From Clostridium sp. AM30-24 (lineage in GTDB: Bacteria; Bacillota; Clostridia; Lachnospirales; Lachnospiraceae), in the NCBI RefSeq assembly GCF_003480435.1, contig NZ_QUJB01000001.1, positions 186,001-250,000 of the forward strand: 64,000 nt of DNA. The letters run 5' to 3'. Positions 556-27,220 of this stretch are shown here, piece after piece (within the stretch, counting starts at the first letter, position 1; each line of letters starts with the position of its first letter). A program made the position numbers and the translations under genes. The notes below the pieces were generated by a model. It saw only the letters and a list, made by a program, of their open reading frames with translations, made no database searches and had not been told where the DNA came from.

Positions 556-2655
556 TTAAATGTAGAAGAGCAATGCATCGTATGTCGGATACGGGAGATA
601 ATCCTCCGGGATCAGGACTTCCGCATCGTTGACAGCCAGACGGATCGTTTCCATCTCGGCAAGGAGCGTGTCATGGTAGTAAGTACCAGCCTTTAAGTAG
701 TCATCCATGCCTTCCGCGGTACCGATCATATCCTTTAAGGTATCAAGCTCATCAGAGATCGTATCTGCGAGTCCGGAGAGCTTTGTGATCAGCTTTTCTT
801 CCGCCTTTGTTGTAATGCCAGGAACAAGCTCTTTCTTGGTGCTGCCTGTGCATGCGAGATCATTTACATAGGAGAACAGAGACGGAAGGAAGTCTTTCTG
901 TACCATTTCCTCCATAGTCTTAGCCTCGATATGGATCGTTTTTGCGTAATCCTCAAGAAGGATCTCGTAACGGGAGAAGAGTTCTTCTTTTGTCAATACA
1001 TGATGCTTTGTGAAAAGCTCGATGTTCTTTTCAGCAATTAAATGCGGAAGAGCCTCCGGTGTTGATTTCAGGTTCGGGAGTCCGCGTTTCTTGGCTTCCG
1101 CTAACCACTCATCGGTATATCCGTTGCCGTTGAAAATGATCCTTGCATGGTCTGTGAAGGTATCCTTTAAAAGCTTGTGGATCGCCGAATCAAGCTCTGA
1201 GCCAGTAAGCCCTTCTAAGACCTTGCAGAAGCCTGCGAGAGACTCTGCAACTGCTGTATTTAAGATCACGTTCGGACCTGACAGGGAGAGAGAGGAGCCT
1301 GGCATACGGAACTCAAACTTATTTCCTGTGAAGGCGAACGGTGATGTACGGTTACGGTCTGTGTTATCTTTTGTGAAGTGCGGGAGTACCTTCGGGCCGA
1401 TGGACATCTGAACGGCACCCTTTCCTTCGAAATATGTTTCGGATTTAATGGAATCGACAACAGCTTCCAACTCTTCACCTAAGAACATGGAAACGACTGC
1501 AGGCGGTGCCTCGTTTGCTCCGAGACGGTGATCGTTTCCGGCTGTTGCAACGGAGATTCTTAAAAGATCCGCATAATCATCAACAGCTTCCACAACGGCT
1601 GCCAAAAACAGTAAGAACTGTGTGTTTTCTGCCGGTGTCTTTCCAGGATTCAGAAGATTTTCACCGGTATCCGTGGAGAGTGCCCAGTTGTTGTGTTTTC
1701 CACTTCCGTTGATTCCTTCGAACGGTTTCTCATGGAGCAGGCACGCAAGGCCATGGCGGTCAGCAACCTTCTTCATCATCTCCATAACGAGCTGGTTGTG
1801 GTCAACAGCAACATTGACGGTTTCAAAGACAGGAGCAAGCTCATGCTGTGCAGGAGCAACCTCGTTGTGTTCTGTCTTTGCCGGGATTCCAAGCTTCCAG
1901 AGTTCTTCATTTAATTCTTCCATGAAGGCTTCCACTCTCGGCTTGATGGAACCAAAGTAGTGGTCATCCATTTCCTGTCCCTTCGGAGCCGGAGCACCAA
2001 ATAAGGTACGTCTGCAGAAGATCAGGTCTTTTCTTAGACGGTAGCACTCCTTGTCTACCAGAAAATATTCCTGTTCAGCGCCTACCGTAGTGTTGACGCG
2101 TTTGACATCTGTTTTTCCTAAAATGTGGAGTAAGTGGGTAGCTTCTTTGCTGACAGCTTCCATGGAGCGGAGCAGCGGAGTCTTTTTATCGAGTGCCTCG
2201 CCGCTGTAAGAACAAAAGGCAGTTGGGATACAGAGTGTATGTCCCTTGATGAATGCGAAAGAGGTAGGATCCCATGCGGTATAGCCGCGGGCTTCGAAGG
2301 TAGCGCGTAAACCGCCTGACGGAAAGCTGGAAGCGTCCGGCTCACCTTTTACGAGTTCTTTTCCGGAAAATTCCATGATCGCTTCGCCAACACCGGTCGG
2401 AGAGAGAAAACTGTCATGCTTCTCAGCGGTGATACCTGTCATCGGTTGGAACCAGTGGGTGAAATGGGTAGCGCCATGTTCCAGAGCCCATTCTTTCATG
2501 GCAACAGCTACAGAGTTTGCGACATCCAGTTCCAGATGGGAACCGCTGTTGATGGTCTTTGCAAGTGCTTTGTAGATATCCTTCGGGAGACGTGCTTTCA
2601 TTTCGGAGTCGTTGAATACAAGACTTCCATACAGTTCAGGAATGCTTTTGCTCAT
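556..2655 (-). CDS. glnN: Type III glutamine synthetase
   Basis: ATP-dependent ligation of ammonia to glutamate in the cytoplasm. At 699 residues it is the size of the large GSIII class (about 700), far longer than GlnA. Visible signatures are THWFQPMTG near residues 64-74, the active-site strand GAEQEYFL near 202-209, and NGSGKHNNW near 326-334. The start chosen is the ATG at 2655, because AAAGGAG sits a proper distance upstream; an in-frame TTG at 2673 lies upstream of that site and would leave it inside the reading frame. It is a single-gene unit with its own promoter, a strongly folded leader and its own terminator. Confidence 0.95.
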
Positions 2656-2673: not shown

Positions 2674-2868
2674 CTCCGCTGAGGAACTTCTTTGCTCCCC
2701 ATATGCGGGAAATCATACTGGGTTTGCCGTCTGTCCCGGGGGAGGAACAGACAGGCATTGTTTTACAGATCAAGGAAGTATGGGGTTTCAAGTATAGGGG
2801 TGGTCCGTAAAACGAGAGAAGGGCACCGGGGTGTATGTATCATGCACCCAAGCGCCCTTGCTCTTATG
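2674..2868 (-). promoter_or_regulatory. Highly structured 5' leader of glnN (four consecutive hairpins)
   Basis: Between the promoter and the ribosome binding site the reverse-strand RNA can form four successive stems. They are at 2819-2859 (AAGGGC and GGGTG arms around an 11-base loop), 2760-2813 (GTTTTACAGA with TCCGTAAAAC), 2725-2757 (a 9-bp stem extended by TGCC/GGCA) and 2698-2722 (CCCATATG with CATAcTGGG). None is followed by a convincing T-run, so control at translation or RNA stability is more likely than attenuation. It matches no riboswitch class I can name; an ANTAR-type dual hexaloop was looked for and not found. Confidence 0.6.
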
Positions 2869-2903: not shown

Positions 2904-3214
2904 CACATTTTTTTAAAAAAAATTTCGATCACAGACAGTGTACCTATTTATAAGGCATTTTCTGTTTTGCATGATTTTGCTGTTGCATAGTGAAACGAAA
3001 AGGTGCTTTGATCTGCTTTCGCTTTAACCATAAAAAACTTTAATAAACTGTAAAAAACACTTTACAAATCGAGAAAAATGGAATATAGTAATTCCATGTT
3101 TTTTTAGCGCAGTTAAAACCTATGAGCATTTGATCCTGCGTAAAAATAAGGTAACTGTGAAGGTACTGAACAGTTGCAAAAGAAAGTTTCATATGATGTG
3201 ATGAGTTAGACAAG
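2904..3214. other. AT-rich intergenic stretch without a recognisable gene
   Basis: This lies between the divergent glnN and pyrG promoter areas. No credible coding frame with a ribosome binding site was found. One 6-bp stem (AACTGT/ACAGTT, about 3150-3175) precedes the terminator-like hairpin at 3215. A pyrG promoter must lie here or just downstream, but I could not identify it with confidence. Confidence 0.4.
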
Positions 3215-3249
3215 GGTGTCAGAGTCTTAGTACTTCTGTCACCTTTTTT
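3215..3249 (+). terminator. Terminator-like hairpin in the pyrG leader (possible attenuator)
   Basis: GGTGtCAGA (3215-3223) pairs with TCTGtCACC (3235-3243) and is followed by TTTTTT (3244-3249), about 145 bases before pyrG and in the same direction. A small alternative hairpin at 3209-3220 (GAC, loop AAGGGT, GTC) overlaps the left arm and could compete with it. In Bacillus, pyrG is controlled by attenuation through poly-G addition at low CTP, but the pyrimidine motif of that mechanism is not visible here. Confidence 0.6.
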
Positions 3250-3392: not shown

Positions 3393-5141
3393 ATGGCAGT
3401 TAAATACGTATTCGTCACGGGAGGCGTTGTCTCCGGGCTCGGCAAAGGTATTACAGCCGCATCCCTTGGACGTCTCTTAAAAGCAAGAGGTTTTCAGGTA
3501 ACGATGCAGAAGTTTGATCCTTATATCAACATCGATCCGGGTACCATGAATCCGATCCAGCATGGAGAGGTGTTCGTCACAGATGATGGAACAGAGACCG
3601 ACCTGGACCTTGGACATTATGAACGATTTATTGATGAAAGCCTTGATAAGAATTCCAACGTAACCACCGGAAAGATCTACTGGACGGTTCTTCAGAAAGA
3701 ACGCCACGGTGATTTTGGCGGAGGTACCGTACAGGTAATTCCCCACATCACAAATGAGATCAAGGCAAGATTTTACCGCGCGAAATCTCCGGACGAAGAC
3801 CGCATCGCGATCATCGAGGTCGGTGGAACCGTCGGCGATATCGAGAGCCAGCCGTTCTTAGAGGCAATCCGTCAGTTTCGTCACGAGATTGGACTTCAGA
3901 ATTCTGTCCTGATCCATGTAACACTTGTTCCATATTTAAAGGCATCTGGTGAATTAAAGACGAAACCGACCCAGCAGAGCGTCAAAGCCCTTCAGGGAAT
4001 GGGAATCACCCCGGATGTGATCGTTTGCCGGACCGAGGTCCCGCTTGAGGACGGGATCGAGAGTAAGATCGCGTTATTCTGCAATGTTCCGGAGGATCAT
4101 GTTCTCCAGAATCTGGATGTTGAATATTTATACGAAGCTCCACTCGCAATGGAGAAAGAGCGTCTGGCCCATGTAGTCTGCGAGTGCTTAAATCTTCCGT
4201 GTCCGGAGCCACAGCTCGGCGACTGGAAGCAGATGGTAGATGCATTAAAGAATCCGACAAACGAAGTTACCATCGCTCTGGTAGGAAAGTATATCCAGCT
4301 GCATGACGCATACCTCAGCGTTATGGAGGCGTTAAAACATGGCGGGATCGCAAACCGCACCAAGGTATCCATCAAATGGGTGGATTCTGAATTCTTAAAA
4401 CCGGGATCTCTGGATGATACCTTCGCAGGCGTGGACGGCATCATCATTCCGGGCGGTTTTGGTTCCAGAGGAACCGAGGGCATGATCCTTGCTGCGAACT
4501 ATGCGAGAGAGAATAAGATCCCGTTCCTCGGAATCTGTCTCGGCATGCAGATGGCTATGGTGGCATTCGCGAGAAACGTGCTGGGCTACGCGGATGCAAA
4601 CAGCTCCGAATTAAATCCCGATACAACTCATCCGGTCGTTGACCTGATGCCGGATCAGAACGGTGTGGAGAATCTTGGCGGAACATTACGTCTCGGTTCC
4701 TACCCGTGTGTGCTTGACAAGAAATCCAAAGCATATTCACTCTATGGCACAGATATGATTCAGGAACGTCACAGACATCGTTTCGAGATCAACAATGATT
4801 ACCGCGATGACTTCACCTCTCACGGAATGATGATTTCCGGACAGTCTCCGGACGGTCATATCGTTGAGATGATAGAGCTTCCGGAGCATCCATTCTATGT
4901 AGGCATTCAGGCACATCCGGAATTTAAATCAAGACCGAACCATGCACATCCGCTTTTTGCAGGCTTTGTTGAGAGTGCGGAGGAGCAGGGAGTGCTCAGA
5001 CGTGCGAAAAAGCTTCTCATGAAGCGGAATCATCTGTCTGAATCGGAAGCTCACCGCTATCTCCAGAAGACAAGTATGGATACAGGACGGACCATGGCAG
5101 AGAGTGCCCATATGGTCACCATGCTGATCCAGGAAGATTAA
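3393..5141 (+). CDS. pyrG: CTP synthase with a C-terminal ANTAR-like domain
   Basis: Makes CTP from UTP, ATP and glutamine. The amidoligase domain starts with [12 protein letters not shown] near residues 8-19. The glutaminase domain has its nucleophile in GICLG (Cys382) and the His/Glu pair in AHPE near 508-510. The usual enzyme ends at about 535-540 residues; this one has 582. The extra tail, about residues 528-582 (bases 4974-5138), carries [20 protein letters not shown] and [10 protein letters not shown]. This is the pattern of the ANTAR RNA-binding domain found at the end of antitermination response regulators. The site GGAGG precedes the ATG. A terminator-like hairpin in the leader fits possible self-regulation (inference). 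dapL follows 38 bases downstream. Confidence 0.95.
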
Positions 5142-5179: not shown

Positions 5180-6394
5180 ATGTTTAAAGTCAATGAAAAT
5201 TTTGCCAAGCTGCCGGGCAGCTATTTGTTCGCGAATATTGCAAAGAGAGTGTCTGCATTTCAGGCAGAGCACCCGGAAAAGGAGATCATCCGTCTCGGGA
5301 TCGGTGATGTGACACAGCCGATCGCCCCGGCGATCATTGAAGCTATGCACAAAGCAGTTGACGAGATGGGTCATGCCGAGACCTTCCACGGATATGCTCC
5401 GGAGCAGGGCTATGAATTTTTGAGAAGTATTATCGCAAAAGAGGATTTTCAGGCAAACGGCTGCGACATTTCCGCCGACGAGATCTTTATTTCCGACGGC
5501 GCAAAGTGTGACTGCGGAAACATTCAGGAATTGTTCTCCTTAGACAGTGTTGTCGCTGTGTGTGACCCGGTATACCCGGTCTATGTGGATTCTAATGTTA
5601 TGGCAGGCCGCAGCGGTCTTTACAACAGCGAGACCAGCCGCTTCGACAAGATTGTTTACATGCCGTGTACAGCTGATAATGGATTTCTTCCGGAGTTCCC
5701 GAAGGAACATGTGGACGTGATCTATCTCTGCTTCCCAAATAACCCGACCGGTGAGGCGATCAAGAAGGTAGATCTTCAGGCATGGGTGGACTATGCAAAT
5801 AAGAATGGCGCTGTCATTATCTTCGATGCCGCTTACGAGGCATATATCACAGAAGAAGGAATCCCACACTCCATCTATGAGTGCGAGGGCGCAAAGACCT
5901 GTGCCATCGAGTTGCGCAGCTTTTCCAAGAAGGCCGGCTTTACCGGCATGCGTCTCGGATTTGCTGTAATTCCGAAGGATTTAAAGTGCGGTGATGTAAG
6001 CTTAAACGCCATGTGGATGCGCCGTCAGGGTTCCAAATACAACGGAACTCCATATATCATCCAGCGCGCAGGTGAGGCTGTATACTCTCCGGAGGGAAAG
6101 ACACAGGTCGCTGAGCAGATCGCGCGCTACATGAAAAACGCAAAGACGATCTATACAGGCTTAAAGGACGCAGGCTTTACCGTATATGGCGGTGTAAACT
6201 CCCCGTATATCTGGTTAAAGACCCCGAACGACATGAAGTCCTGGGATTTCTTTGATTATCTGTTAAACAATGCCGGTATCGTGGGCACTCCTGGTGCAGG
6301 ATTTGGTCCGTCCGGAGAGGGATATTTCCGGATCACTGCTTTCGGAACTTACGAAAATTCTTTAAAAGCACTTGACAGAATCAAAAATCTCTGA
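5180..6394 (+). CDS. dapL: LL-diaminopimelate aminotransferase
   Basis: A fold-type I PLP enzyme converting tetrahydrodipicolinate plus glutamate directly to LL-diaminopimelate, for lysine and peptidoglycan. At 404 residues it is the family's normal length. SFSKKAGF near 247-254 holds the PLP lysine (Lys250), and the N-terminal part (residues about 3-15, NENFAKLPGSYLF) is typical of DapL. The ATG at 5180 is chosen because GAAAGGA lies 9 bases upstream; an ATG at 5141 has no ribosome site and overlaps the pyrG stop. It is probably co-transcribed with pyrG. Confidence 0.93.
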   Translation: MFKVNENFAKLPGSYLFANIAKRVSAFQAEHPEKEIIRLGIGDVTQPIAPAIIEAMHKAVDEMGHAETFHGYAPEQGYEFLRSIIAKEDFQANGCDISADEIFISDGAKCDCGNIQELFSLDSVVAVCDPVYPVYVDSNVMAGRSGLYNSETSRFDKIVYMPCTADNGFLPEFPKEHVDVIYLCFPNNPTGEAIKKVDLQAWVDYANKNGAVIIFDAAYEAYITEEGIPHSIYECEGAKTCAIELRSFSKKAGFTGMRLGFAVIPKDLKCGDVSLNAMWMRRQGSKYNGTPYIIQRAGEAVYSPEGKTQVAEQIARYMKNAKTIYTGLKDAGFTVYGGVNSPYIWLKTPNDMKSWDFFDYLLNNAGIVGTPGAGFGPSGEGYFRITAFGTYENSLKALDRIKNL

Positions 6395-6400: not shown

Positions 6401-6427
6401 ATAAAACATCAAAAAGATATCAAACAA

Positions 6428-6722
6428 AGGCGTTGAAGGAAACTCCCTTTCGAAAGACTTTACAGAGAACCGTGTGACAGCTGAGAGCATGGAAGAAACG
6501 AGAAAGGCGGGAACGCTCCGGAGCCGGCTGCTCGAAGATCGGATACGATGGTAGGACAGCACGCAAGCCGCACGTTACGCGGCCGAGTCGTTAGGATGAT
6601 GGTCCGACAGCGAAAGCGGCGACTCATGAGTGGCATGGAAATGCAATGCGGGTGGTACCGCGGGTGATATAGATCCCGTCCCGGAGAATGATGAAAGCAA
6701 GATTCTCCGGGGCGGGATTTTT
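6428..6722 (+). promoter_or_regulatory. T-box leader with an AAC (Asn) specifier
   Basis: The T-box sequence TGGTACCGCGG is at 6653-6663, an AGAGAACC motif is in stem I, and a terminator (ATCCCG...GGAGAAT with ATTCTCC...GCGGGAT plus T-run) runs from 6673 to 6722. Aligning it with the thrS T-box in this window (specifier ACC, six bases, GAG) puts AAC at 6512-6514 in the specifier position, again six bases before GAG. That means it senses uncharged tRNA-Asn, although the first gene is an aspartyl-tRNA synthetase. The result fits an operon that makes Asn-tRNA indirectly. Confidence 0.9.
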
Positions 6723-21090: not shown

Positions 21091-21149
21091 GCTTATTACA
21101 GGTCTATTTACATGCGGTGCTGTTATGGATATTCAAGGCAGGCGCTGTT

Positions 21150-21330
21150 AACGCGCATGAAACGATGCCCATAAGAGTTAAAAGGGAAACAGGTCGAAAG
21201 CCTGTGCGAACCCGTCACTGTAGATCCGGAGTGTATGAAAAACGTCCGTTATAGGCGGACAGTCACTGGCAGCTTCTGCTGGGAAGGCATTTCATGTGCG
21301 ATGATGGATGAGCCAGGAAACCTGCCGGAT
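21150..21330 (+). promoter_or_regulatory. Cobalamin riboswitch
   Basis: The conserved core is present: AAAAGGGAA near 21180, GTGCGAACCCGTCACTGTA near 21204-21222, GGGAAGGC near 21281, and the B12 box with GAGCCAGGAAACCTGCC near 21310-21326. It is followed by an ACCGG/CCGGT stem and the first gene 70 bases later. No strong T-run terminator is visible, so translational control seems likelier. It should switch off the downstream uptake operon when B12 is plentiful. Confidence 0.95.
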
Positions 21331-21398
21331 GTCTACCGGGAAGAAAAAGAACCGGTCTGAGACCTGAAAATTCATTTTTCAAGCGAGGAGAAGAGTAA

Positions 21399-26989: not shown

Positions 26990-27220
26990 AATAACACGTT
27001 GACAGGAAGAGTACGTTCAGAAACTGCTCAGAGAGGGATACATTTGGTGAGAGTATCCTGCACGGAACGAACCGAAGACCACCCTGGAGTGTCCCTTAAT
27101 CGGGAACGGTGATTCCGTTATCATCAAATGAAGTGGTATAGAAATTCTATACAAGCAGGGTGGAACCACGGGTAATCTCGTCCCTTGATTATGCAGAGCG
27201 CATAGTCAAGGGACTTTTTT
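26990..27220 (+). promoter_or_regulatory. thrS leader: T-box leader with an ACC (Thr) specifier
   Basis: The T-box sequence TGGAACCACGG is at 27161-27171 (variant of TGGNACCGCG). ACC at 27078-27080 is six bases before GAG, in the specifier position. The terminator GTCCCTTGA...TCAAGGGAC plus six T spans 27180-27220. It senses uncharged tRNA-Thr and controls the threonyl-tRNA synthetase. Confidence 0.93.

Follow-up and report, generated by a model that had tools for sequence, protein, structure and literature searches.

In Bacillus, the pyrimidine-pathway protein PyrR has enzyme activity and also binds leader RNA, where it controls attenuation and promotes termination. CTP synthase is likewise controlled by a leader terminator in B. 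subtilis, in which extra G at the transcript start prevents attenuation (Meng 2004, cited in PMC4448216). The sensors of known ANTAR regulators are of the receiver, NIT, PAS and GAF kinds, and in the sections of the literature cited here no ANTAR domain is described on a central metabolic enzyme. Their RNA target is a hexaloop closed by a C:G pair, with A at loop position 1 (A1) and G at position 4 (G4), and the P2 hairpin of the target overlaps the terminator (Ramesh 2012, PMC3369931; Goodson 2020, PMC7496416). For EutV the minimal binding motif is one hexaloop, but a dimer and the pair of loops are required for antitermination (Walshe 2022, PMC8934654). NasR and AmiR are one-component regulators in which a ligand-binding part controls the RNA-binding part, and SELEX with NasR returned the same C:G-closed A1/G4 hexaloop (Goodson 2020, PMC7496416). 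The predicted targets of ANTAR nitrogen regulons include P-II, ammonium transporter and glutamine/glutamate synthase genes; in the cited sections, pyrG is not named among them and the regulator is a separate protein (Ramesh 2012, PMC3369931).

Here we describe a CTP synthase with an ANTAR domain fused to its C-terminus, encoded in a 64,000-nucleotide stretch of the Clostridium sp. AM30-24 genome (the window). It is unrelated to PyrR in fold and RNA, and would prevent rather than promote termination. With EutV-type regulators it shares the three-helix domain and, in its putative targets, the A1/G4 hexaloop, the closing C:G pair and the overlap of the hairpin with the terminator 5′ arm; it differs from them, as far as the cited sections describe them, in its carrier (a biosynthetic enzyme instead of a receiver domain), in the number of hexaloops (one in the pyrG and glnN leaders, two in EutV targets) and at the positions of the EutV contact residues R142, Y164, R168, N173, R175 and R177 (Ramesh 2012, PMC3369931; Walshe 2022, PMC8934654). 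The one-component logic of NasR and AmiR would be shared, although the would-be sensor is here an enzyme with intact catalytic domains and, unlike the separate regulator of the nitrogen regulons, the domain is fused to the enzyme that would be its target. Our main reading, to which we give a probability of roughly two in three, is that PyrG-ANTAR is an antiterminator that binds the predicted hexaloops of its own leader and of the glnN leader, most likely with the ligand state of the enzyme as signal. The genes concerned are:

3393..5141, + strand: pyrG, 582 aa, CTP synthase carrying ANTAR at its C-terminus (open reading frame; Pfam CTP_synth_N, GATase and ANTAR).
4977..5117, + strand: ANTAR domain, PyrG residues 529-575 (PF03861, E 3.2e-14).
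5180..6394, + strand: aminotransferase, which we take to be dapL, the direct 3′ neighbour of pyrG (Pfam class I/II aminotransferase; synteny).
556..2655, - strand: glnN, type III glutamine synthetase, the divergent neighbour of pyrG (Pfam GSIII_N and glutamine synthetase C-terminal domains).

The enzyme part scores above the NCBIfam equivalog cut-offs for CTP synthase (NF003792, 834 bits; TIGR00337, 807 bits), its synthetase and glutamine amidotransferase domains are both complete, and C382, H508 and E510 are invariant across 44 aligned rows; judged by its sequence, PyrG of the window is a complete CTP synthase. The tail is certainly an ANTAR domain. PF03861 matches it with 52.9 bits over model positions 7-53 of 54 (curated cut-off 27.3), and scores 55.8-59.7 bits in the PyrG proteins of seven fused relatives. 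In the predicted model the tail adopts the three-helix ANTAR fold, and the last helix of PyrG continues straight into it without a linker. Fold searches with Foldseek and VIA-align matched it to EutV, NasR, Rv1626 and AmiR, with ANTAR proteins as the top eight Foldseek chains and the top seven VIA-align entries; the Foldseek E-values are weak and the VIA-align Z scores middling, as expected with a short helical domain, and the Foldseek rmsd to EutV-type ANTAR domains is 0.7-1.0 Å. An earlier note, made from the sequence alone, had proposed an ANTAR domain at the C-terminus of this CTP synthase and suggested a Pfam search, a structure prediction and a survey of PyrG in relatives; all three have now been run, and the first two bear the proposal out.

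The survey covered species genomes, in which 80 of 115 confirmed loci were kept, with the tail in seven and absent from 73. Wider samples found it in six of 397 genomes of the family (five of the seven already known and G139, whose fused locus is truncated by a contig end) and in one of 398 genomes of the phylum (G006 only), so that in the genomes sampled the fusion is confined to one gut-bacterial lineage. In a tree of 76 PyrG rows, built with the tail excluded and L055 omitted as too short, the fused proteins form one clade (support 100/100), nested in a weakly supported fork (89/75) of 33 rows; 29 of these 33, eight fused and 21 unfused (L060 included), have the leader element described below. 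Tail and core are constrained alike, with a median pN/pS of 0.10 and 0.13, respectively, over 28 pairs among eight fused genes (rough ratios, with synonymous sites near saturation), and on this ground we reject a decaying tail. A literature search in titles and abstract openings of freely available journal papers found no description of the fusion; a hit that appeared to link ANTAR to pyrG (PMC4448216) was rejected, its matching passage concerning antarctic phosphatase.

Each of the seven fused relatives, a set that does not include the window genome, has a single CTP synthase and exactly one PF03861 match, always the PyrG tail. By contrast, 67 of the 73 unfused genomes encode ANTAR as a separate protein (one copy in 66, two in one), always in a frame of 172-269 aa; many of the assemblies behind these counts are drafts. 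By eye, the stand-alone proteins have a receiver-like N-terminal part with no obvious phospho-acceptor, and in the one tested Pfam found no receiver domain.

Gene order suggests how the fusion arose. The unfused genomes G268, G193 and G433 share the order pyrG-gltB-gltD-glnA-ANTAR-dapL-aspS-gatA (glnA and gltB of G268 are confirmed by Pfam; gltD in all three, and glnA and gltB of G193 and G433, were named by eye or by weak BLAST matches), and in G268 and G433 glnN lies divergently upstream of pyrG as in the window. Thus, dapL follows the separate ANTAR gene in the unfused kin and pyrG::ANTAR in the window, where aspS comes next; dapL is the neighbour in every fused locus laid out (L003, L005, L006 and L007), with aspS behind it in L003 and L007 only. 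Because gltB, gltD, glnA and the ANTAR gene stand between pyrG and dapL in the unfused order, and the first three are missing there in the window and its fused kin, the simplest history is probably that a stretch reaching from where pyrG ends into the ANTAR gene was deleted, and we infer a single event. This would have removed gltB, gltD and glnA and stripped the N-terminal part from a stand-alone ANTAR protein by which pyrG was already regulated, so that the output domain stayed behind on PyrG.

Several other observations touch on this neighbourhood. A GltB domain was detected in two of seven fused genomes versus five of five unfused ones; GltB was not found in five of the seven (G001-G007) and is interrupted by a stop in G001, so glnN may carry nitrogen assimilation in fused genomes without intact GltB. 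ANTAR and pyrG are linked in more than one gene order: an ANTAR gene lies immediately upstream of pyrG in L067 (2249-4411), L079, L050 and L074, and in L067, L074 and L079 a glnA-like gene (by eye or weak BLAST) precedes the pair. Between dapL and aspS the window has a T-box leader (6424-6686, + strand; 80 bits, E 7e-17, below the Rfam gathering score of 93), and elsewhere a T-box leader (26990-27188, + strand) and a cobalamin riboswitch (21123-21343, + strand), both above their gathering scores.

The leaders of pyrG and glnN in the window contain the following elements, R1 being a covariance model built from 27 of 36 elements collected from the window and its relatives (L027, L044, L047, L051, L054, L063, L068, L069 and L071 were left out for unlike length); both window sequences were in its training set:

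3061..3089, + strand: likely pyrG promoter, TTTACA-17-TATAGT (consensus scan; conserved before pyrG of the fused and of many of the unfused relatives).
3209..3220, + strand: predicted antiterminator hairpin, GAC-AAGGGT-GTC, in which C:G closes an A1/G4 hexaloop (sequence; relatives; covariation).
3212..3249, + strand: intrinsic terminator of the pyrG leader (fold; R1 hit 3204-3249, E 1.5e-8).
2850..2863, - strand: predicted antiterminator hairpin of the glnN leader, GAGC-AAGGGC-GCTT (sequence; R1 hit 2815-2867, E 6.4e-6).
2809..2859, - strand: terminator-like hairpin that overlaps the glnN hexaloop (read from sequence; relatives).

With their closing pair, the hexaloops of both leaders follow the pattern C-AAnGGY-G. 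In the pyrG leader the 5′ arm of the terminator includes the hexaloop, and the two folds are mutually exclusive. Hexaloop and terminator precede pyrG in all seven fused relatives, in the window and in the held-out G139, with G instead of A opening the loop in G006. In the pyrG leaders of most fused species the promoter follows the pattern TTTACA-17-TATA(G/T)T, and the 5′ arm of the terminator overlaps GAC-AAnGGT-GTC. A scan for the ANTAR design found it in 28 of 78 pyrG leaders, with 8 hits in 780 shuffles and 3 in 78 reverse complements as controls. Relaxing the distance (and loop position 1 for L006) gave 31 leaders, in which the loop counts follow from the choice of A1 (save in L006), G4, C:G and a 3-bp stem; with L072 dropped as a chance match and L060 counted for a genuine element further upstream, 30 of 78 pyrG leaders have the element. 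A second scan, which demanded only A2, G4, G5 and a terminator and neither A1, C:G nor a stem, returned 79 candidates in 43 leaders. C:G surrounded the loop in 32, and a stem of at least three bases followed in 30 of these 32 versus 3 of the 47 others; the 30 belong to 30 different leaders, and A1 is found in 29. Since the terminator uses the same letters as the loop, conservation of the loop alone is no proof of protein binding.

The hairpin is single. No P1 hexaloop was found within 60 nt upstream in any of 29 pyrG leaders; the strict search gave 0 of 29 versus 5 of 580 shuffles, an absence at chance level, and with any closing pair allowed 10 of 29 versus 110 of 580. In 19 of the 29 the -10 box of the best promoter ends 17-33 nt before the loop, leaving no room for P1; in the window it ends 122 nt before the loop, with room to spare. 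The hairpin and terminator pairs thus have the signature of ANTAR targets as judged from the leaders, but with one hexaloop, and we do not file them as a canonical dual-hexaloop system, only as one that would act in a similar way.

Apart from the hairpin, CATR followed by at least five T occurs just after the pyrG -10 box in six of eight fused leaders (window 3095-3110, + strand) and could permit U slippage at initiation. As a search key, the pattern GACAANGGYGTC was no commoner than its backward control and carries no weight alone; it gave 40 matches, and among the 30 fetched a T run occurred only at six pyrG leaders and at a single match that fell by chance in coding sequence.

At glnN, the terminator-like hairpin of the window has a weaker and more distant T run than those of the relatives. 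The element precedes the pyrG-linked glnN in the window and in G001, G003, G004 and G007, and the glnN leader of G005 (L182 1335-1467) has two hexaloop/terminator attenuators in tandem. It is absent from five second glnN copies and from the single distant glnN of G006, and none was seen for G002, which has no glnN match; L185 and L186 contain other AnnGnn loops of the chance kind. The window glnN leader (- strand) also has a second C:G-closed hexaloop, AAAGAA, on an 8-bp stem about 38 nt before the ATG, near the ribosome-binding site and without a terminator.

R1 scored 150 candidates per genome. In the window, only the pyrG and glnN leaders fall below E 0.05, and the pyrG leader is the best match in all seven fused genomes, where it is a training sequence. 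In the held-out fused G139, R1 finds both the pyrG and the glnN element (E 1.1e-6 and 5.3e-5). Among the seven it recovered the glnN elements in G004 and G005, whereas those of G001, G003 and G007 escaped it despite having been used in training; it is therefore not sensitive there, and further targets may exist. One candidate is a circularly permuted ATP-grasp gene (CP-ATP-grasp, PF14403), a possible third target with hexaloop and terminator, preceded by weak matches in G003 (L203, E 0.0067) and G001 (L208, E 0.48). Other matches in fused genomes lack the hexaloop (L202, L204, L205 and L207) or fall inside coding sequence (L209).

R1 also gave matches in 18 of 19 unfused genomes, among them 18 with E at or below 0.0025 that are neither pyrG leaders nor training sequences. 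Sixteen could be read, two in G073 having no locus; a C:G-closed G4 loop with a stem is present in 15 of them, 14 of these with A1. By Pfam, the genes behind them encode three ammonium transporters (a fourth was recognised by eye), P-II, a type III glutamine synthetase, two class III aminotransferases, two solute-binding proteins, an ABC ATPase, SSF and MatE transporters and a C39-like peptidase; the gene behind L224 had no Pfam match. This list matches the nitrogen regulons predicted earlier, as far as the cited sections describe them (Ramesh 2012, PMC3369931). The element also precedes pyrG in the unfused sisters G268, G135 and G433; in G193 the only R1 match lacks the hexaloop element. Six genomes lack ANTAR; R1 was run on five of them, and four gave one match each (E 0.13-0.56), with no hexaloop.

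A terminator also precedes pyrG in B. subtilis and S. agalactiae (PMC4448216, in the section cited), and the pyrG terminator could in principle belong to CTP-sensitive reiterative transcription of the B. subtilis kind, unrelated to the tail. We regard this as very improbable: in the window no run of G follows closely on the TATAGT box, the start site being placed by the predicted promoter, and there is a hexaloop instead; moreover, CTP-sensitive slippage leaves unexplained why this element also occurs upstream of glnN and, in unfused relatives, upstream of ammonium-transporter, P-II and amino-acid transport genes.

Covariation points to the hairpin as a paired structure. For the 36 scan-chosen elements (29 pyrG and seven glnN; 27 distinct), a five-pair stem scored 0.360 versus 0.191 ± 0.029 when shuffled, three of the pairs having been demanded by the scan. 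The 28 R1 hits outside the training set were placed by model position only, with no stem demanded and with R1 pairing the terminator and not P2; they scored 0.336 versus 0.194 ± 0.028, with 0 of 500 shuffles as high and slid alignments reaching at most 0.147, although kinship of the sequences can lift covariation above shuffles. The stem has at least three pairs in 25 of the 28, and paired changes occur, e.g. GAC/GTC to AGC/GCT.

The domain itself is less canonical than the loop. The fused ANTAR retains K539, E550 and M562 (EutV K149, E160 and M172), and has Q532, H554 and Q558 at EutV R142, Y164 and R168, and D563, G565 and T567 at N173, R175 and R177. In EutV, Y164A costs 55-fold in binding and the triple mutant N173A/R175A/R177A abolishes it (Walshe 2022, PMC8934654, in the section cited); in NasR, alanine at R340, R366, W362 or N373 abolishes binding (Goodson 2020, PMC7496416, likewise), and the fused domain has Q, Q, H and G there, respectively. 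In the fused clade the terminator is weaker and has a U-U mismatch. The replaced residues, together with the shortness of the fused-clade P2 stems (3-4 bp, -0.7 to -2.3 kcal/mol by folding), would fit a tail that has lost RNA binding and serves PyrG oligomerisation or stability, with the hairpins as relics or in use by something else. We consider this improbable, because most of these changes are just as usual in stand-alone ANTAR proteins and because the pyrG hexaloop and terminator are kept throughout the fused clade (with G1 in one relative) though no other ANTAR was found in the seven relatives. Q532, H554, Q558, D563 and G565 are also the commonest letters among 65 stand-alone proteins, a count that left out the T567 position: at R366, Q occurs in 55 of 65, at N373 G in 54, and at W362 H or Y in 63, while at R340 Q is merely the commonest letter (26 of 65). 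NasR, too, has D at the position of EutV N173. As the same changes are common in stand-alone proteins, the Lachnospiraceae ANTAR family may read RNA slightly differently from EutV and NasR.

We consider PyrG-ANTAR likely to be a working antiterminator of pyrG and glnN, a reading drawn from comparison of genes and leaders. The earlier note had guessed that the fused enzyme might control its own leader or that of glnN. The guess is strengthened by a hexaloop overlapping a terminator or terminator-like hairpin in both leaders, by its retention in fused relatives and recovery in held-out G139, and by the fact that no other ANTAR was found in the seven relatives; against it stands the divergence of several contact residues of EutV and NasR.

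One alternative bears on the signal. The tail might bind the same leaders with PyrG as a mere carrier and no switching by ligand, such that the amount of enzyme sets readthrough in plain positive autoregulation; the loss of the N-terminal part of the stand-alone protein and the linker-free junction in the predicted model would suit this. It seems unlikely, since one would expect an essential enzyme under positive feedback to be unstably controlled if no switch were present, and the presence of glnN among the likely targets suggests that the signal is one of nitrogen. We return to an antiterminator that would be governed by the ligand state of CTP synthase, the most attractive and most likely candidate for the signal. 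PyrG is oligomeric in known structures, and the oligomer could meet the need of antitermination for a dimer. A shortage of glutamine or CTP would free the ANTAR domains of the oligomer, and plenty of either would mask them; a free domain would hold the hexaloop, block the terminator and let pyrG and glnN be transcribed. The enzyme would thereby raise its own level and that of its nitrogen-donor supplier.

Somewhat short of even odds, and so only tentatively, we propose the whole chain: that one deletion put the output domain of a nitrogen regulator on its target enzyme, and that CTP synthase, now the sole ANTAR antiterminator, reads its own glutamine and CTP occupancy and sets itself and glutamine synthetase through one-hexaloop attenuators. 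If true, this would be a direct feedback from enzyme to RNA that ties pyrimidine to nitrogen supply, and a traceable case of a regulator and its target merging into one gene. It would also test whether one hexaloop and an oligomeric carrier suffice for antitermination, a point raised by the EutV-RNA structure, and the lineage, with its unfused sisters and two short leaders, renders the system testable.
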